Shown here piece by piece: positions 29,840-64,000 of a stretch of DNA of 64,000 nt (its first letter is position 1; the number at the start of each line of letters is the position of its first letter). Location: the NCBI GenBank assembly GCA_017470905.1, contig JAFUXL010000009.1:86706-150705 (forward strand), written 5' to 3'. The position numbers and the translations under genes are program-made. The stretch is from Ruminococcus sp. GTDB taxonomy: Bacteria > Bacillota > Clostridia > Oscillospirales > Ruminococcaceae. Below the pieces are notes generated by a model. That model saw nothing but the letters and a program-made list of their open reading frames with translations. It had not been told where the DNA came from and did no database searches.

Positions 29840-30114
29840 TTTTATCTCCTTATTTAAAATCGTCAGTTTTCGCCTCTTTAATCTTGTGCTTTCGTTCACT
29901 GCGCTGCGCTCCGTTCTCTCCCAGCACAAGGGCGCAATTTTCCTATATTTAAAATCGTCAATCTTCGCCCCTTTAATCTTGCCACTTCGTTCACTTGGCA
30001 CAGCTACGTTCACTTTCGTGGCAAGGGCGAAAATTTCCTCTTAATAATCCCAAATTTAATTATGAATTATGCATTATGAATTATGCATTAATTATGCATT
30101 GACAACAGTTTTTG
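29840..30114. repeat. Two tandem copies of the TTCGCCC/GTGAACG repeat
   Basis: Copies at about 29860-29950 and 29951-30045 are in the opposite orientation to those at 13.9 kb and 27.7 kb. Each runs AAAATCGTCA...TTCGCC...TTAATCTTG...CGTTCACT...GGCAAGGGCGAAAATTT. AATTATGCATTA repeats follow (30058-30095). Confidence 0.65.
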
Positions 30115-53133: not shown

Positions 53134-53970
53134 CTATAGCGTTTGCAGAAATTTCCACATGGTTTTCGGAGTCTTATCTGCGACTTCAATCTCTCTGCAC
53201 TGCACGGCAAAAGCATCCACCTGAATATGCAGTGTGTCGTTCTGGATATACTGCCCTTCAATTTTGGGGACTTTCTTTGCCAGCTTTTCAAATTTATCTC
53301 TGTCAACGTCTGCCGTCTCTGTGAGCCATGCCTGATGACTCTTCCAATAGGCATTCTTGTCATCTTCTTCTGTCAGCAGACTGTACTCATACGCATAACG
53401 GTCGAGAATTTCATCGTCCTTCCATGCATACAGATTGTCGATAAATTTCAGATGGTCAAAGAGAACTTCCGTTGATTCGCCCACAGCCAACTCTGCCATT
53501 TCTGTCTCATTACCGCCCATATAAGCAAACAGATAGGTGTGGTCGCCGAGATCCACATCGCTTACAGGTATCCATTTACTTGTATTTGTACCAACAGTGC
53601 TGTTGTAGATCAACTGATACAGCTCTTGATTTTCCTTGATTTCATAGAAAACCTTATCGGTTTTTTTAATTTCTTTGGTATCTTTCAGAACCCTGACATC
53701 AGCAGCCGGGATAGTCACACGCAAAAAAACATAGGCAGGATTTTTGCCGGTGTTTTTCACAAGAGGGTCTTTGTCCGCCGATGCTCCCGGATTCAGTTTT
53801 CTGTCAGCATCGGTTTTTGTATCATATACAGCCTCGATCAGCTCAATGTCCACACTTCCCCCTGTAAAGGAATTTGTTATGACATCGGTACTCGTAAAAT
53901 ACGCCGCAGTACCACTTATAATGCCAATGACACCTATTGCGGCGACAGTAAGCCATCTGTTCACTCTCAT
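53134..53970 (-). CDS. TasA/camelysin-like, SipW-dependent secreted protein
   Basis: The protein is 278 residues from the ATG preceded by GGGAG. Its signal (RVNRWLTVAAIGVIGIISGT, then AAYFTSTDVITNSFTGGSVD) and LVKNTGKNPAYVFLRVTIP are typical of TasA/camelysin proteins that form extracellular fibres. The gene lies between the sipW-type gene and the giant repeat protein, the same order logic as tapA-sipW-tasA of Bacillus. The C-terminal 100 residues are charged and lack a known domain. Confidence 0.85.
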   Translation of the reverse strand: MRVNRWLTVAAIGVIGIISGTAAYFTSTDVITNSFTGGSVDIELIEAVYDTKTDADRKLNPGASADKDPLVKNTGKNPAYVFLRVTIPAADVRVLKDTKEIKKTDKVFYEIKENQELYQLIYNSTVGTNTSKWIPVSDVDLGDHTYLFAYMGGNETEMAELAVGESTEVLFDHLKFIDNLYAWKDDEILDRYAYEYSLLTEEDDKNAYWKSHQAWLTETADVDRDKFEKLAKKVPKIEGQYIQNDTLHIQVDAFAVQCREIEVADKTPKTMWKFLQTL

Positions 53971-54104
53971 AATCGCACTCCCTTTCTGCTCAAAATATAC
54001 TTTTCCCATTATAATTATAGCATATTTAACCGAAAATTTCAACCATTTGCAGAACTTTTTCACTGTTTTTTCACACAAAAAAGCAGACTAAAAAACATCG
54101 GCTG

Positions 54105-54626
54105 CTATTTCTGACTTTCCTGCAAATTATCGTCTTTAGGTTCGTTACTGTCAAGCAGAATATCCACAAAAATAAGAAATATCACAAATGTGACAAGCAT
54201 CACAATCCCCGGCACTGATTTTAACCGCATAATCCAAATACCGAGATTCGGAATCCAATACACAGTCTTGCCGATGAAATTCCCTGCTGTCACAGGTATG
54301 CCGTCCTCGGTATTGTTGTTGTCGCCTTTTGTAATGATGCCGTCGGGGGAGATTTTCACCGCACGGTGCGTCACCATTGTTCCGCCGCCGAGTTCAAATG
54401 CGATAATGTCATTTTCCTGTATTTCTTCAAATTTTGTGTTATGATTGACAAAGCACACACTGCCCGTCATGATGGTCGGTTCCATTGAGCCGGAACGGAC
54501 GATATAGGGGCGGATGCCGATGAGCCACAGGACAATGGCGGTCAGTGCTATGCCAATCAGTGTGAACTGTACCATGTGGTTGATGATTTTCAGGATGTTG
54601 ATGATGACTCTTTTCATCCGCTTCAC
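54105..54626 (-). CDS. sipW: Signal peptidase I, SipW (ER) type
   Basis: The 173-residue membrane protein has catalytic Ser47 in RSGSMEPTI and His87 in MVTHRAV. The His replaces the Lys of ordinary bacterial signal peptidases, which marks the SipW/archaeal-ER subgroup. Helices lie near 20-38 and 145-163. KGDNNNTEDG is the conserved Box E region. SipW enzymes process TasA-like proteins, and the next gene (135 bases downstream) encodes one. Confidence 0.92.
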   Translation of the reverse strand: MKRMKRVIINILKIINHMVQFTLIGIALTAIVLWLIGIRPYIVRSGSMEPTIMTGSVCFVNHNTKFEEIQENDIIAFELGGGTMVTHRAVKISPDGIITKGDNNNTEDGIPVTAGNFIGKTVYWIPNLGIWIMRLKSVPGIVMLVTFVIFLIFVDILLDSNEPKDDNLQESQK

Positions 54627-56386: not shown

Positions 56387-56463
56387 CGAGGTGTGGCTCA
56401 GTTTGGTAGAGTACTACGTTCGGGACGTAGGGGTCGCAGGTTCAAATCCTGTCACCTCGACCA
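56387..56463 (+). tRNA. tRNA-Pro (anticodon CGG), CCA encoded
   Basis: The 77-base tRNA has acceptor stem CGAGGTG with CACCTCG, anticodon loop TTCGGGA, T loop GTTCAAATC, and a 3' ACCA. Accessory genes begin right after it, so it may mark an integration hot spot, though no second attachment copy was found. Confidence 0.96.
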
Positions 56464-56671
56464 TACATAATCCCCCGATATTTCGGTTATTTGTCGATTT
56501 ATCGGGGATTTTTTGCGCCTGAAATTCTAAAATTTTTTATAGAGAATATAATATTTCAGAGTGTTTTTCCAATATTTTTGAATAAAATTAGACATGAAAT
56601 CCCCTGTCAGGCACGAAAAGGCAGAGATAATTTGTTAAATAATAAAAATATTTATTTTGTGTTTTTATCAC

Positions 56672-56701
56672 TTGACAAATTGTTGTTTTTTTGAGTATAA
56701 T
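56672..56701 (+). promoter_or_regulatory. Promoter of the Panacea-domain gene
   Basis: TTGACA at 56672-56677 and TATAAT at 56696-56701, 18-base spacer, 21 bases before the start codon. Confidence 0.75.
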
Positions 56702-56722
56702 ATAATAAGGGGGGTGAAAGCT

Positions 56723-57166
56723 ATGGCTGATATTTTTGATGCTGCAAAATATATCCTTGAAAAACACGGAGAAATGACTACAATGAAATTACAAAAGCTT
56801 TGCTATTACTCTCAGGCTTGGTCTTTGGTATGGGACGGAGTTCCGCTTTTTTCGGAAGATTTTCAGGCATGGGCAAACGGTCCCGTGTGTCCTGAATTAT
56901 TCAACTGGCACAGAAAAAAGTTTGTTATAAATGCAAACGATTTGCCGCAGCTTTCAGGAAGTCATAATTTAACCGCCGCTGAAAAAGAGAATATTGATAA
57001 TGTACTTGCTTATTACGGTGATAAAGAGGCACATTGGCTCAGCGAACTTACACATAAGGAACGTCCGTGGAAGGAAGCACGGAACAAGGCAAATGCCATG
57101 CCCGGAGATTTATGCAGTGAGATTATTACCAAAGAAAGTATGATGGATTATTATGCAGGGCTTTAG
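56723..57166 (+). CDS. Panacea-domain (SocA/DUF4065) antitoxin-like protein
   Basis: The protein is 147 residues from the ATG preceded by GGGGGG. It has the Panacea pattern: MTTMKLQKLCYYSQAWSL, then SEDFQAWANGPVCPELF and WLSELTHKERPWKEARNK. Panacea proteins (SocA, GepA) act as antitoxins for varied toxins and are encoded beside them. The next gene, 17 bases on, is a small protein of the right size for a toxin. The family call is firm; the pairing is inferred. Confidence 0.88.
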   Translation: MADIFDAAKYILEKHGEMTTMKLQKLCYYSQAWSLVWDGVPLFSEDFQAWANGPVCPELFNWHRKKFVINANDLPQLSGSHNLTAAEKENIDNVLAYYGDKEAHWLSELTHKERPWKEARNKANAMPGDLCSEIITKESMMDYYAGL

Positions 57167-57183
57167 GAACGGGTTGAAACAGA

Positions 57184-57630
57184 ATGGCTAAGTCAAAAAA
57201 ACGTGTAAAAATTGATGAGAATATTAAAATATCCGTTAAGCGACAGCCTAAGAGCCGTGAAAATCCCGATAGTTATTTTGATTATTATCCTTCGTGGAGC
57301 TTTTCAAAATGTGATTTTGAACATGAAAAATGGTCGCTGAAAAAATCGGATTTTTTGAATGAAATACTGGATAAGCTCATTTCGTTTGAACGCAGAAAAT
57401 GGTCGGATATTGTGAACGATGATAAACACAATCACTGGATTGACTGCAAGGACTTTTCAAAAGAAGCTAAGAAAAGATTAGAAGAACTTAATTTGCATTA
57501 CGACCAATTATTCTCACTTCGTTTAACGGGTACATTAAGACTTTTCGGCTATATTCAGGACGGTGTTTATTATGTAATCTGGTATGACCCAAATCATGAA
57601 ATATGTCCGTCATATAAAAAGCATACATAG
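57184..57630 (+). CDS. Small protein, putative toxin partner of the Panacea antitoxin
   Basis: The protein has 148 residues with a basic N-terminus and a conserved-looking C-terminal stretch, LRLTGTLRLFGYIQDGVYYV followed by IWYDPNHEICPSYKKH. This stretch resembles the end of RelE/ParE-like or related RNase folds (R-x-x-G...W-D-P-x-H). The start is 17 bases after the Panacea gene and a terminator follows, so they form a two-gene operon. The toxin role is inferred from context. Confidence 0.7.
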   Translation: MAKSKKRVKIDENIKISVKRQPKSRENPDSYFDYYPSWSFSKCDFEHEKWSLKKSDFLNEILDKLISFERRKWSDIVNDDKHNHWIDCKDFSKEAKKRLEELNLHYDQLFSLRLTGTLRLFGYIQDGVYYVIWYDPNHEICPSYKKHT

Positions 57631-58691: not shown

Positions 58692-59351
58692 TTAAAAATT
58701 TCTTTTTTCGATGACATCACCATATTGTTCAACGGAATCGGTGATAACATCAAGCCAAAAAGTACATTTCTCTGAAAGAGAGTATACTGTATCGGATATT
58801 TCCACACTTTGCAAAAGCGGATGTGTACTTGCATTGACAGGCAGAAGTTCTTTATAGTGAAAGCAGTTTTGTTCTGCATCATAATTCCAGTACTCTCTCC
58901 ATTTTCCATCCAGATTTAATGTAACAATCAGCTGATTATTCCTGTTTTTCAGGTACATTTTTTTTGCTTCCGTTTCAAAAACAGCAAAATCAGATAATTC
59001 ATTCAGCTGGCAGATATATCCATTTTTATCTCTCCATCCTGGTACAAGCATTACTTTGATATATTCATCATTTTTCGTACTTGTGATTACAATTTTTTTA
59101 TCAGCAATATAGGGAGAGTCTTCGTTATTTTCATATTCCTTTTTCCATGTCAGTTCGTTACTCTTTTCCGGCTCTGTATTGCTGTCATCATTTTCTTCCA
59201 CATGAATCTGTGCGCTGCCGACATTGAAAACATTTTTACGTTCATTACTAAGATACAATATTGCAAATGCAGTAAGCATACCCACTCCCGTGAGAACAAC
59301 CAGAGCCGTTATCAGCGCAGATGATTTTGATAATTTTCGTTTCTCAATCAT
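58692..59351 (-). CDS. Second TasA/camelysin-like secreted protein
   Basis: The protein has 219 residues. The N-terminus (KLSKSSALITALVVLTGVGM, then LTAFAILYLSNERKNVFNVG) resembles SipW-dependent signal peptides, and NVFNVGSAQIHVEEND matches the start of mature TasA-like proteins. The rest is beta-rich with no known domain. Its ATG overlaps the last stop of the broken pilin frame by four bases, so translation would normally be coupled to it. The sipW-type peptidase at 54.1 kb could process it. Confidence 0.7.
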   Translation of the reverse strand: MIEKRKLSKSSALITALVVLTGVGMLTAFAILYLSNERKNVFNVGSAQIHVEENDDSNTEPEKSNELTWKKEYENNEDSPYIADKKIVITSTKNDEYIKVMLVPGWRDKNGYICQLNELSDFAVFETEAKKMYLKNRNNQLIVTLNLDGKWREYWNYDAEQNCFHYKELLPVNASTHPLLQSVEISDTVYSLSEKCTFWLDVITDSVEQYGDVIEKRNF

Positions 59352-61716
59352 GAGTTATCCCCGTCCCTTGCAATTTTATTATCATAGTATGCACTCGAAC
59401 TAAAATAAGCAAATTCATTTTCTGCATTAGAAAAGCTTGCTGTAGGTCTTGTACCGTTTTTCACGGTTTCTTCATCTGTATATTTTTCTCATTCCAAATC
59501 TGAAACAGAGAACATGACAAAGTTGCATTTATCGTTTGCATCAATATATTCAGCATTATTACTGACTATATACCATTTCTTATCGTTCAAATTATAGGTC
59601 ATCTTATCCGAACAGCTTAAATCCACATAAAATACATTTGTCGGCTCTGCCGTACCGTTGATAGCTTCTTCTTTCTGGCTTTCCTCGAAACGCTCCACCT
59701 TGAACACAAAACGCTGTGCTGTGTCGCTGCTGTTACCATGAATATTTTTATCAAGATAAGCAATTTTCTCAATATCAAAGCAATATTCCAGTTCTGTTAC
59801 CTCGTTGACAGGTGTATATGCTGTTGTATTATTCTCTGTTGTCTTTTTGAGGGGAATAAACTGATACTCTGCTTTCGGGTTGGCTCTGCCGTCTCTGTCT
59901 TTTACGGATTTATAGACATATAAACCGTTTTTCGGTTCATATTTATTTGTAAAGCTCCTGACGCTGTTTGTAATCGTAACATTGGAATCGGCATTGTCCA
60001 GAATCCGTTCCCGTGCAGTGACTTTGACTGAATTTGCAGTTGGCGTATAAACTGACGGGTCATAGACTGCCTCTGTGATAGTATATTCCATTCCTGCCAC
60101 AGGGTCAATAAACATTGCCGTCTGTCCATGCTTCAGGGTAAATGTTCCCGATGTACCGGTAGAATAATATCCGCCCAGGGCATCGCCGCCAAAATCCTCA
60201 TTATCTGATGTGCGAAGATAATATTTCAGATTTGCAGGGTTTTCTTCATAATCCTTTATCTGGAAAGTGAACTCTTCCTCTATATTCAGCTCATCCTCTC
60301 CCGCTCCGATTATTTGCTTGCGGAATAGCAGGACGTTCGGAATATTTTTGAAATTATAGTTGGTTTTCGCTGATACAATTGCGCTTCCCTCCATGCAGAT
60401 ATCATGGTTTTTTCTTTTAATACTGTCAGTTTCTACAGCACTGTAATTCGGATACAGGACAGTATCGCCGTTTTTCAGAATTTCCCTGATAATGACCATA
60501 TCATTCTTGCCAAGACCATAGAATTCAATATGCTGGTTTGATTTGAGCGTGAATGTCTTATAATCATACGTACCGTCTGCATTTTTCGTACCCTGAAATT
60601 TCAGGCGGTTTTTCTGTTCTGTTTCTGATGATTTGTCGTTAAAAATCTGATACTGAATATCAGAAACATTAACTTCCTTGTCTTCATCATTCAGAAGCTG
60701 TATCTCGAAAGTAAATTCCGTATCCAGCAGATTTTCCGCCGTTTTGCTGCCAAAGAAATAGTAATCCTCATTTTTATAGACTTTTACCGTGTTATCCGGC
60801 TTATCAAAATAATTGATACAATCCACATATGTTGTACCGTCGTTATTGATTTCCGTGATATGCTCATCACCGTCGCCGAACCTGAAATCTTTCTGTGTAT
60901 ACTGCCCGTTATAATTGTTGTCCTCGGTATTGTTTCGGTTTTCCTGTAATTTTTGGAGATACGCTGCTGTTTCCTGCACCTAAATATACCTGTATTTGTC
61001 GCGCGGCTTCGGGAAAACGGCTCTTTCGCCGTCACGGAGCATAATTTCTCCTGTCGTGGTTGTTGTGAATTTATTGGTAAGGGGAATTGTAGTCAAATTC
61101 AATCCATGATTATAATTGATTTTCCCGACATAGTCTAAAGCGAGATAATCGGAAAGTTCTTTACTAGCATATTCTACCAAAATTTCATTATCTTTATATT
61201 CTTCAATCTTCTTTTTCGCATATGCTATAAAATCATCAGAAGAACCAAACGTTGAATTGTCAGTGTCAGTCACCGCCCGTACACCGTCAATATAGCAAAT
61301 ATATCCATCTGTCGCAGTCGGGCGGAACACATACACATGACTGTCGTCGTCCGTTCCGGTATAGTACTGACCATTGGCACTCTCTCTGATATAGGTTTCT
61401 CCGGCTACGGCGGTGAGAGCCGATTCTTTGGTTTCACCGCCGACCAGAATCAACTGAAATTCATCATCAGAAAGTGCGTTCCGGCTATAGAAGGCAGTAT
61501 CATCTGCATCCTTGCTTTCACGCATGGGTGCAGTGCTGTCCTCACGCCTGTAAATGTCCTTGCTGACGGTAATATCATGTGCTTTCTCATTGCCAAAATG
61601 CAGAGTAGGAGTATTATCATTGGTATCTGCCGCTACAACGCCGGAAAGCATCAGCGTGATGGAGATAATGCAGGTCATCAGCAGGGATATATATTTCAGG
61701 AATTTATTTTTTTCAT
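59348..61716 (-). pseudogene. Broken pilin/adhesin with Spy0128-type isopeptide domains
   Basis: One reading frame of about 790 codons spans this stretch except for three lesions. First, the ATG at 61714-61716 (AAAGGA nine bases ahead) runs through seven A residues; an eighth A would join it to the signal peptide KFLKYISLLMTCIISITLML. Second, TAG at 60980-60982 lies between DKYRYI and VQETAAYLQ. Third, TGA at 59489-59491 lies between SVSDLE and EKYTDEE. The body has Spy0128/DUF7601-like beta domains (GTFTLKHGQTAMFIDPVAGM; EYTITEAVYDPSVYTP). Its final stop overlaps the next gene's ATG, as expected of a once-intact gene. Confidence 0.8.
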
Positions 61717-62394
61717 TATCTCTCGTCCTTTCTTACTGATATTTCTTTCTTCTTCGTATGGTGTCAGATTTACCGGCATGATGTCAATCGGTGTGCTGTC
61801 AAGGGGACTTTGGCTGCGAACAGGCATAGGCGGACGAGGATAAGCTGTATTTTCAAGCTCCGGTGCGCCTGCCCTTTTTGCAGCATCCCATAAGATTTCT
61901 GTCACCTTATCGATTACAATGTCGTTTATGTCCGTACTTGTGCCAAATACAAGACCTGTCACATATGCCCTTACTGCGTCTTTGTTTGCGAACATTTTAT
62001 TTCCATTTGCGCCGTTGTTTCGCATATCGTCTTTGAAATATATTGTCACTGTTCTTTCTTTGGTTTGATTACCATCCTTGTATTCAAATTTATAGGTGTG
62101 GGTAGTTGTATTGATTTGGGTTTTCTCAGTACTTGACTTATCAGGGATTCCGAAACAAGCCTTGATTCTGTCCCATTCGGTTTCGTCAGTTCCGTCAATT
62201 TTTCTTTTTGCCGAGGCGGTGGACATTTCGGTAAAGATGATTGTAGAACAGTTGCTCAGAACATTATTTCTGCTGGCAGTATTATTAGCTCCCAAAAATT
62301 GTGTGTCGAACCCCGACATAGTAGAGCTTCTGATAATGTAGGTCTGCGGAGTGCCTCCAGTGTTTACGTTTACGGTGATATTGATCTCGCTCAT
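61696..62394 (-). CDS. Unknown protein, first gene of the second surface operon
   Basis: The protein is 232 residues from the ATG with AAAGGA seven to eight bases ahead. It opens SEINITVNVNTGGTPQTYII and is rich in Thr, Asn and Ser, with no signal peptide. The middle (TYKFEYKDGNQTKERTVTIY) looks beta-stranded and the end (AYPRPPMPVRSQSPLDSTPI) is Pro-rich. It ends inside the start of the broken pilin gene (IMKKINS), in a frame that the missing A of that gene may have altered. I do not recognise the family. Confidence 0.55.
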   Translation of the reverse strand: MSEINITVNVNTGGTPQTYIIRSSTMSGFDTQFLGANNTASRNNVLSNCSTIIFTEMSTASAKRKIDGTDETEWDRIKACFGIPDKSSTEKTQINTTTHTYKFEYKDGNQTKERTVTIYFKDDMRNNGANGNKMFANKDAVRAYVTGLVFGTSTDINDIVIDKVTEILWDAAKRAGAPELENTAYPRPPMPVRSQSPLDSTPIDIMPVNLTPYEEERNISKKGREIMKKINS

Positions 62395-62398
62395 GATC

Positions 62399-62418
62399 GT
62401 GTCCTTTCCGCAGGACAC
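62399..62418 (-). promoter_or_regulatory. Hairpin covering the operon's first ribosome-binding site
   Basis: On the minus strand GTGTCCT-GCGGAA-AGGACAC forms a perfect seven-pair stem, followed by GATC and the ATG at 62394. The Shine-Dalgarno AAAGGA is partly in the loop and partly in the stem, so the hairpin would hide it. Confidence 0.6.
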
Positions 62419-62851
62419 ATCGGCAGGGAATCTTCGGGCAGCCGTAAGCAGGGTGCAAACGGGCATAAAAATAGCCGGACGCACAGACAGAGGGCTGCCC
62501 ATACGACCATCTAACCGATGACAGAGGGTACAACCCCGTGTCAGTTTTCAGTCGTATGAACATCCGCTGCCGTATGCATCCGGCAATGAGATATTATTTG
62601 GATTCAGACAACGCTTGTCTTGCGTGTCTGTATGTATATCTTAGCACATCATGAACAATAACACCACGTCATCACTTGTCCAAAGAAAAAACAGGGCTAA
62701 AAAATCCACAAAAGCCCCATAAAATCGGCATTTTCTGACTTGCCATTTTCCACGTTCCGGACAAGTGTTGTCCAGAAAATGAGGGATAAAAATACTGATT
62801 TGTAGGATTGCACAAATTTCACAAGTCGTTTCAGACAGTTCGAATTTATAT

Positions 62852-62877
62852 AAAACGGCTATTTAAAGCCGTTTTAA
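62852..62877. terminator. AT-closed hairpin beside the operator array
   Basis: AAAACGGCT-ATTTAA-AGCCGTTTT is a perfect nine-pair stem, with T-rich sequence on one side only. It is a possible terminator between two operator blocks. Confidence 0.5.
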
Positions 62878-62979
62878 TAAAAATCATTGTGCGGGACACC
62901 TCTTGTCCACGGACATTCCTTGTCTCTCGGACAACCCTTGTCCCGAACACATCTTGTCTCCGAGCACCTCCTGTCCACC

Positions 62980-63021
62980 TTCCCGAAAAAACAAAAAATC
63001 CGCACCCTTTCGGATGCGGAT
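62980..63021 (-). terminator. Terminator of the XRE gene
   Basis: On the minus strand the stem ATCCGCA / TGCGGAT is followed by TTTTTTGTTTTTTCG. It lies between operator copies seven and eight. Confidence 0.8.
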
Positions 63022-63036
63022 CAGACAAGGCTTGTC

Positions 63037-63378
63037 CTATGCACTCAATTCCTTCACGCCCTGATTTCTCATCAGCACGTTGCTTTCTTCAATTGTATAT
63101 GCACCGGATAATACCAGCAGCTTTGTGTATGCCAGATCCTGCTTGGAGATACGCAGCTCATTCCCCGATTTTTTCATCAGTCTCATCGAGATTTCAAACG
63201 GCAGCTTAACGCCCATGCAGATACGCATAATAAGCTGCGGTGTGGGCTTCTGTGTTTCGCCTGAAAGCAGACGGCTGAGTGTCTTTGGAGTGATTTCTGA
63301 TTCCAGTGCAAATTCCTTTTCTGTCTTTTCCGTCCATGCGATAACATTCCGCAGCGCCTTCGGAAAGGACTCCGGCAT
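63037..63378 (-). CDS. XRE-type helix-turn-helix regulator
   Basis: The protein has 113 residues. The HTH lies at about 20-60 (EKEFALESEITPKTLSRLLS, then GETQKPTPQLIMRICMGVKL). A helical tail ends NQGVKELSA. It lacks a peptidase or LexA-type cleavage domain. Three bases separate its ATG from the stop of the broken upstream frame. It lies beside the operator array, whose last copy overlaps its stop codon, so binding to that array and control of the surface operon are likely but unproven. Confidence 0.8.
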   Translation of the reverse strand: MPESFPKALRNVIAWTEKTEKEFALESEITPKTLSRLLSGETQKPTPQLIMRICMGVKLPFEISMRLMKKSGNELRISKQDLAYTKLLVLSGAYTIEESNVLMRNQGVKELSA

Positions 63379-63381
63379 ATC

Positions 63382-63734
63382 TTACACGACCTCTCCTACA
63401 TCAGCATCTCTCACCTTAACAGCCGCCCCGATACGCTTGGCGGCGTCCTCGAATGTTTCGTTGTTTGCGCATAAAGCACATTCAAGGGGATACTCGATTC
63501 GACTGTTCTGTAGAGACCGCCGTCAGTGTTGTTCTGAGAATGAATGAACCCCTGATTCGGATAGACCAAAGCAACCTTCAAAGCACACTTTTCGAGGTGA
63601 TTTCTTGCCTCCTCCGTTAGCGTGCAGTCCTTGTTCACGAAGTCCGGGTAGTTGATGACAAAATGGTTCTCTACAAAACCCACCCTGCCCTTTGTAACCA
63701 TTCCGGACAGTTTCGGATTCTTTTCCATGAGCAT
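63382..63734 (-). pseudogene. Frameshifted, N-terminally truncated gene of unknown function
   Basis: One frame (63411-63734) reads NPKLSGMVTKGRVGFVENHF and NKDCTLTEEARNHLEKCALK. Near 63500 the sensible sequence shifts to another frame, NSRIEYPLECALCANNETFE then DAAKRIGAAVKVRDADVGEV, ending at TAA 63382-63384. The beginning is missing because the IS5-type element lies just upstream. It was probably co-transcribed with the XRE gene three bases downstream. Confidence 0.6.
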
Positions 63735-63752: not shown

Positions 63753-64000
63753 TTGTTAGAACCTGTCCACATAGACTTAGCATCTGCGAAGAAGGGTATG
63801 GATATGCGAGATTATGCACATAGTTTCAGCATGAACGGCTTTAATCTCATAATCCTTAGAAAGGCGACGAGAGCCTTGAAACCACGACAATGTCCGCTCG
63901 ACTTTCCAGCGGAGCGGTTGAACTTCAAATGTATTTTTGATTCTTGGAGAAATATCAATACGGATATTATGGAAAGTCTCGAAAGTATTTTTGAAGGTTC
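63753..64000 (-). mobile_element. Right part of an IS5-type insertion sequence, cut by the window edge
   Basis: The element end appears to be TTAGAACCTGTCC (about 63755-63767). The transposase C-terminus lies inside it. The other end is outside the window. Confidence 0.65.
63777..64000 (-). CDS. IS5-family transposase, C-terminal part
   Basis: The last 74 codons read TFKNTFETFHNIRIDISPRI and PLRWKVERTLSWFQGSRRLS then KDYEIKAVHAETMC. The W.VERT.SW....RRLSKDYE block is the conserved C-terminal signature of IS5-group DDE transposases, with Glu in VERT as the last catalytic residue. The 5' part lies beyond the right edge. Confidence 0.88.
   Translation of the reverse strand, partial: TFKNTFETFHNIRIDISPRIKNTFEVQPLRWKVERTLSWFQGSRRLSKDYEIKAVHAETMCIISHIHTLLRRC

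Follow-up and report, generated by a model that had tools for sequence, protein, structure and literature searches.

A candidate operator array, probably derived from a prophage immunity region, beside a surface operon of Ruminococcus sp.

The window analysed here is a stretch of 64,000 nucleotides from a Ruminococcus sp. assembly (2.04 Mb, 73.75% complete), and its position 64000 is also the end of the contig (C6, position 150705). Near this end the reverse strand carries, in apparent order, a putative repressor gene (3′ part only), a terminator, a group of candidate operators, a predicted extended −10 early promoter, a rod-like leader and a surface operon.

The putative repressor gene (63037..63378, reverse strand) is an XRE-type HTH open reading frame of 113 amino acids, assigned by PHROGs and by profile as the C-terminal domain of a fusion between an M78-like peptidase and an HTH domain. 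It corresponded to residues 515–625 of the 626 residues of phrog_4031 (E 2.8e-13) and to positions 469–578 of a profile of the fusion (E 2.8e-19), while its score against Pfam HTH_3 was 20.2 bits, below the cut-off of 23. A further remnant of the fusion lies just N-terminal of the HTH in another frame (63411..63734, reverse strand); this matched residues 401–487 of the fusion of phage L085 by blastp (E 2e-7) and positions 351–442 of the fusion profile (E 1.4e-7), and its frame is interrupted. Only these two profile segments are left and the peptidase domain is not present in the window. An open frame running up to the contig end (63777..63998, reverse strand) appears to be a fragment of an insertion-sequence transposase (PF13586, DDE_Tnp_1_2; 21.8 bits, the cut-off in Pfam being 29.2). 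As the rest of the fusion is missing, its frame is interrupted and a transposase fragment extends to the end of the contig, the gene in the window is a remnant. The HTH frame is followed by an intrinsic terminator with a stem of 11 pairs and a T run (62997..63022, reverse strand).

Searches with the 113-amino-acid frame gave matches in two of 59 other genomes, in three of 393 genomes and in two phages, and the XRE protein had no match in collections of genome contigs and viral contigs. Several of these matches were to the C-terminal end of proteins of 575–630 amino acids with a peptidase-like front part, and the match in L084 was to a stand-alone protein of 180 amino acids. In four fusions the front part scored 16–19 bits against Pfam M78, below the cut-off of 22, and a Pfam M78 match was absent in the fusions of L085 and L241. 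An HExxH-type motif is present in the fusions of L199, L206, L207 and L208, and the PADLOC capP model matched four of the five fusions scanned (E 1.4e-5 to 3e-9). Two M78-like/HTH fusions that lack the leader RNA described below adjoin restriction enzymes, of Mrr type in L082 and of LlaJI type in phage L085.

A reading made earlier from the sequence alone (the sequence-only reading) had described eight 15-bp sites of the form GGACAA-N3-TTGTCC in about 430 bases, three of them perfect palindromes, with the last copy overlapping the XRE stop codon. All eight sites were recovered with up to three mismatches within 432 bp (62606–63037), where ∼0.17 would be expected by chance; the chance expectation over the whole window is 24.7, and a window-wide scan found at most three such sites per 450-bp stretch elsewhere. 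The central N3 was specific to the inverted arrangement, a gap of 3 giving eight sites and the other gaps from 0 to 15 giving none to two, whereas the everted arrangement of half-sites gave up to five, as expected from neighbours within the tandem block.

All of the sites are given here on the reverse strand. The copy nearest to the operon (62606..62620, two mismatches) is centred at +30 from the −10 element, the second (62667..62681, three mismatches) at −31, a position common to relatives, and the third (62759..62773, no mismatch) at −123. A tandem block follows, composed of 62894..62908 (one mismatch), 62911..62925 (two), 62929..62943 (none), 62945..62959 (three) and a degenerate ninth site at 62962..62976 (four). 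The outermost copy (63023..63037, one mismatch) has one base in common with the HTH stop codon, as had been noticed, and the three perfect palindromes are the copies with fully complementary arms at 62606, 62759 and 62929. The claim of five sites spaced 16–18 bp apart held for the spacing (start-to-start distances of 17, 18, 16 and 17 bp) but not for the membership, as the five are four of the eight sites plus the degenerate copy at 62962. Helical phasing of these five was wrong; the distances are ∼1.6 helical turns and not a multiple of the helical repeat, so that the sites are nearly abutting but out of phase.

To the extent that it was searched for elsewhere, the motif is local to the array region. 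The core GACANNNNTTGTC was found at 21 distinct places in the genome of the window, six of them in the array; 14 of the other 15 had a locus, and all 14 fell within open frames no shorter than 170 codons. With up to two mismatches there were 64 places, compared with 84 for a reversed control, hence no genome-wide enrichment. The density of the motif elsewhere in the genome had been named beforehand as a possible refutation, and the array came through this comparison, the motif being not above chance outside it. A host-wide regulon was rejected on the same lack of enrichment.

Comparable arrays were also sought in other collections. In viral contigs the array pattern matched 33 stretches, where no 450-bp span held three strong sites. 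In genome contigs it matched 19, of which 16 had one strong site, two had two and one had three; the last (L137) lies within an open frame of 679 amino acids. A triple-TTGTC pattern was present in 69 of 125 genus genomes and its reversed control likewise in many, and by eye the matches elsewhere resembled low-complexity coding repeats. No match to the array region was found in plasmids, and no comparable array was seen at the eight loci scanned around fusions without the RNA (six fusion relatives and two phages) or around four other surface operons.

The predicted promoter between the second and the first site consists of an extended −10 element, TGCTAAGAT (62638..62646, reverse strand), identified by pattern and TGNTATGAT-like in most relatives. 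It is followed by a conserved rod-like leader RNA of ∼125 nt (62459..62590, conserved from 62584, reverse strand), recognized by covariance model, fold and covariation. The leader scored 98.1 bits against the covariance model, the window being in the training set. The leader between the promoter and the first surface gene gave a fold z of −6.7 and the conserved element one of −6.35.

A blastn search with the leader at E 0.1 gave matches in 27 of 125 genus genomes, the majority of them short and weak. The clear set shared an element of ∼125 nt with a GCCGGATGCATACGGC start and, at its end, a complementary arm and then a T-rich run, and six members folded as one long rod (z −6.35 to −9.17). An alignment of 14 sequences showed two-sided changes in four of seven inner-helix pairs (13 cells), and 92.1% of cells paired compared with 20–43% when the arms were slid. 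None of 500 shuffles equalled this alignment in cells paired, two-sided cells or covariation score; the count of pairs with a two-sided change was equalled by 39 of 500 and that of further pair types by 283 of 500. When the fold was computed from 11 sequences, the outer stem alone was recovered and none of its pairs changed on both sides. The covariance model found 13 strong places (E below 1e-8) in 12 of the 125 genus genomes, eight of the 13 places being training sequences; reverse-strand matches of the near-palindromic model and weaker matches were excluded from this count. Eight of 11 viral loci fetched by the end sequences of the RNA carry the element on reading, so that its relatives beyond the window are at 20 places, 12 in 11 genus genomes and eight in viral contigs. 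Rfam 15 at gathering level gave only tRNAs in the window and no match in five relative loci, and a permissive Rfam scan of the leader region gave three low-scoring matches. The outer stem and U run look like a terminator or attenuator. A CsrA-type sponge RNA was considered and rejected, as by eye GGA is in two of seven loops.

The fusion or its HTH end was found 243–510 nt upstream of the RNA, on the same strand, in 14 of the 20 relatives (L239, L240, L241, L242, L243, L246, L248, L249, L250, L199, L204, L206, L207 and L208), with the HTH end only in L246 and L204, near a contig or locus end. It was not just upstream in the other six (L244, L245, L247, L198, L203 and L201); L198 has a weak HTH match 1.6 kb upstream of the RNA, and the L201 locus is cut off 307 nt upstream of it. 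Behind the RNA, the genes of L241 include those for DUF2800, DNA polymerase A, an ssDNA-binding protein of Enc34 type and a sigma-like protein, and on reading, frames similar to the L241 phage genes are present in seven of the eight viral contigs, the exception being L203. DUF2800, Enc34-type protein and DNA polymerase A behind the RNA identify a phage early region in the relatives. Such genes are absent behind the promoter in the window, where surface genes are found instead, and for this reason the region is termed here as derived from a prophage immunity region.

Palindrome families were searched for in the interval between the repressor stop and the RNA at 13 loci including the window, leaving out L199 and L208 as near-copies of L248/L249 and L207, respectively. 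Families, mostly differing in sequence, were found in seven of the 13 intervals, with three or fewer of 100 shuffles equal on members plus score. The family of the window had nine members (one chance-like copy included and 62962 left out), that of L204 five (GGAAGA-N3-TCTTCC), that of L243 four (CACCCC-N5-GGGGTG), those of L241 and L206 three each and those of L246 and L242 two each; on members alone the L246 and L242 families were equalled by 14 and 11 of 100 shuffles. No family was found in the intervals of L239, L240, L248, L249, L250 and L207.

When these families were placed relative to the −10 element, six of the seven sets had a palindrome centred at −31 (window, L204, L243, L246 and L241) or −32 (L242), and four had a second one at +30 (window) or +33 (L204, L241 and L206). 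The coincidence of six in seven within 2–4 bp was reached by none of 20,000 random placements, the L204 −10 being without the TG. The −10 element became the reference only after a first comparison, with the loci aligned at the RNA start, in which the coincidence was weak (908 of 20,000 placements as good). L206 has no listed copy at −31; a degenerate one seen by eye was not counted. L241 and L206 are close kin and the seven sets are therefore not independent. L243, L246, L241 and L206 have one more copy, with its centre at −173 or −174, that is absent from the window. The −31 site of the window is a weak copy, yet it is singled out by this geometry. In the relatives nothing corresponds in position to the −123 site, the tandem block or the 63023 copy, which are an expansion peculiar to the genome of the window. 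In L203, seven copies of GTACAAC, four of them 10 bp apart, lie 68–159 nt upstream of the RNA element at 1799 and occupy the place of the window's array.

The operon itself starts with an orphan gene (61696..62394, reverse strand), which neither Pfam nor NCBIfam assigned to a family within the limits applied. None of 125 genus genomes had a relative of it; 295 genomes of the order gave a single weak match (E 0.0045), and phages, plasmids and viral contigs gave none. In the start region of this gene (62394–62415) a GTGTCC…GGACAC hairpin, the arms of which resemble the operator half-site, is possible by eye around the probable ribosome-binding site. The next surface gene is divided by an in-frame TAG (60980–60982) into a front piece (60980..61678, reverse strand), which matches residues 14–113 of the L150 protein, and a rear piece with DUF7601 (59489..60979, reverse strand; 59.8 bits, cut-off 27), which matches residues 270–613 and 733–841; both pieces thus match one protein of the relatives in the same order. 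A SipW-dependent matrix-protein-like gene follows (58692..59351, reverse strand), weakly matched (TIGR04090, 17.2 bits, cut-off 60) and with relatives in four other genomes of 197. Farther off (53134–54626), beyond genes on the forward strand, are a SipW-like peptidase and a protein that carries a SipW-type signal.

Surface genes were also found near the control region in G060 and G028. The order in G060 is HTH end, two palindromes, promoter, RNA, a DUF7768 gene and then proteins with SipW-type matches, one above and one below the curated cut-off, with a SipW-like frame on the opposite strand. In G028 the RNA is followed by phage-like genes, then by a protein of 1807 amino acids, a DUF7601 protein and a TasA-like protein. 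The 1807-amino-acid frame (L151, 9422–14845) contains a piece of DUF2800 (profile positions 68–169 of 368), DUF7601 and leucine-rich repeats, and as judged from these domains is a junction of phage and surface genes. Seven queries gave no tblastn match at 1e-5 in the ten remaining genus places or in any of the eight viral contigs, where the downstream stretches were 1.5–10.5 kb, mostly shorter than the distance to the last surface gene in G028. These data suggest a link between the control region and surface genes in three species, that of the window included. The literature searched, which is weak evidence of absence, gave no description of this control region or of a tie of SipW genes to it.

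The position of an XRE gene beside a surface operon, as originally described, is correct as a layout, but the control region appears to be prophage-derived and the XRE gene is a remnant of a phage fusion. The evidence that the sites are candidate operators of the adjacent XRE-type protein is strong but indirect, because the frame is the HTH of a phage fusion and because in relatives the corresponding position near the promoter is taken by other palindrome families. Taken together, homology, gene order, operator geometry and RNA conservation, as they appear from sequence, make it probable that the array is the unusually enlarged operator set of a prophage-derived immunity (lysogeny) region that is now beside a surface operon. 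Against this reading stand the six intervals with no palindrome family, the eight fusion loci with no comparable array, the six relatives in which the fusion is not just upstream, the weakness of the −31 copy in the window, the sites that lack a counterpart, the weak coincidence on alignment at the RNA start, the kinship of L241 and L206, and the M78 scores below the Pfam threshold.

Immunity regions of the temperate phages lambda, 434, P22 and TP901-1 have an HTH repressor, several palindromic operators and an early promoter. The region described here is alike in these three respects and, in the relatives, in the early replication genes; it is unlike the lambda-type regions in having a single fused peptidase-HTH repressor, a rod-like leader RNA and up to nine sites with a tandem block, with repressor and operators in line on the same strand. 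CapH and CapP are regulators of CBASS. The capP model matches and the restriction enzymes near two of the fusions are reminiscent of this pair, whereas the proteins here are fused and have phage early genes behind them rather than CBASS. In ICEBs1 the peptidase ImmA is reported to cleave and inactivate the repressor ImmR (PMC6540685); the combination of an HTH repressor with a putative metallopeptidase is shared, but ICEBs1 has two proteins and the present system one fused protein with putative cleavage.

We infer binding, repression, cleavage, control of the surface genes and a function of the RNA as follows. The HTH would bind the GGACAA-N3-TTGTCC sites, and occupation of those at −31 and +30 would exclude RNA polymerase from the promoter. 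The contribution of the upstream block would be looping, cooperativity or an obstacle to read-through, and the fused peptidase of intact relatives would lift repression by cutting the repressor, as ImmA does to ImmR. The operon behind the RNA is mostly phage replication in the relatives and a surface operon in the window. As the repressor is broken in the window, the promoter would be either kept silent by the HTH fragment that is left or constitutively active.

A different use of the sites, as directional stoperator-like sites at which the repressor halts elongating RNA polymerase rather than acting at the promoter only, is unlikely, although it is the least unlikely of the alternatives. In eight of the nine sites, all of them oriented along transcription, the upstream half on the reverse strand (GGACAAG) is the better one (p = 0.039 by a two-sided sign test). 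Mycobacteriophage L5 (PMC9283540) has more than 20 asymmetric 13-mers that follow the direction of transcription, with repression lost on reversal. Many sites with an orientation bias are thus common to both; however, those described for L5 are spread genome-wide, while those of the window are nearly symmetric 15-mers clustered in one region with no spread over the host genome. The asymmetry is slight, three copies are fully symmetric, and most of the extra sites lie between the repressor's own terminator and the promoter.

The operator reading was also weighed against regulation of biofilm type, in which the XRE frame would be a host-evolved, SinR-like regulator of a SipW/TasA-type operon and the sites its operators. 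The sites do adjoin the surface operon and flank its promoter, and the HTH frame has its own ATG. Nevertheless, this frame and the piece before it belong to a phage fusion protein, the promoter-RNA unit drives phage genes in the relatives, and a similar XRE frame beside surface genes was found only in G060, which makes a SinR-like origin improbable. Still less probable is that the sites act like iterons in replication or partition, or serve as a decoy for titration. Five tandem copies at 16–18 bp, phage replication genes behind the equivalent region in relatives, and the GTACAAC copies in the equivalent interval of L203 would suit such a role; but isolated copies flank the promoter, and positions in relatives are tied to the −10 element. 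The iteron idea, raised by the sequence-only reading, also found no backing in the proteins near the array that were given to Pfam, none of which has a replication-initiator domain. Its idea of filament-like binding likewise gained no support, and for filaments as for titration the evidence points neither way. The least probable alternative is that the copies act as hairpins in a transcript, since although array RNA from either strand has a more stable fold than its shuffles (z −5.3 and −6.95), palindromes fold by construction, the block is behind a terminator, the centres vary and minimum-energy folds pair different copies rather than forming one hairpin per copy.

With an enlarged immunity operator set as the preferred reading, a wider proposal can be made, which we put forward tentatively and hold to be somewhat doubtful. 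The phrog_4031 family, matched by the HTH of the window and by the L241 fusion, may consist of single-chain immunity repressors with their own derepressing metallopeptidase, which would control the early promoter of the rod RNA, the switch being placed beside SipW-type or DUF7601 surface genes in three species. If this were true, surface display would be coupled to a prophage-type switch, possibly one sensing DNA damage. The family is listed as of unknown function, and its context suggests a role as a lysogeny repressor. Should the prophage promoter run the surface operon, surface display would answer to prophage-type signals. The differing operators at fixed geometry in the relatives make co-evolution of repressor and operator directly testable. 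The more surprising parts are the rod RNA, a conserved structured RNA without an Rfam match, and the three surface-gene neighbourhoods, each in a different species, where phage control modules adjoin surface genes.

Some minor features were recorded elsewhere in the window and genome. A possible integration site at 56387–57630 consists of a tRNA-Pro, then an antitoxin-like gene of SocA/Panacea type and a small frame. Seven-base repeats of the AATTATG/TAATTCA kind recur at 2351, 9019, 15979, 27469, 28296, 30058, 30990, 31156 and 32655, and a 95-bp tandem repeat in two copies is found at 29847–30039. The same 14-mer is present at the very ends of three contigs (G000 C4:55-68, C6:55-68 and C16:26-39), which suggests a repeated element that breaks the assembly.
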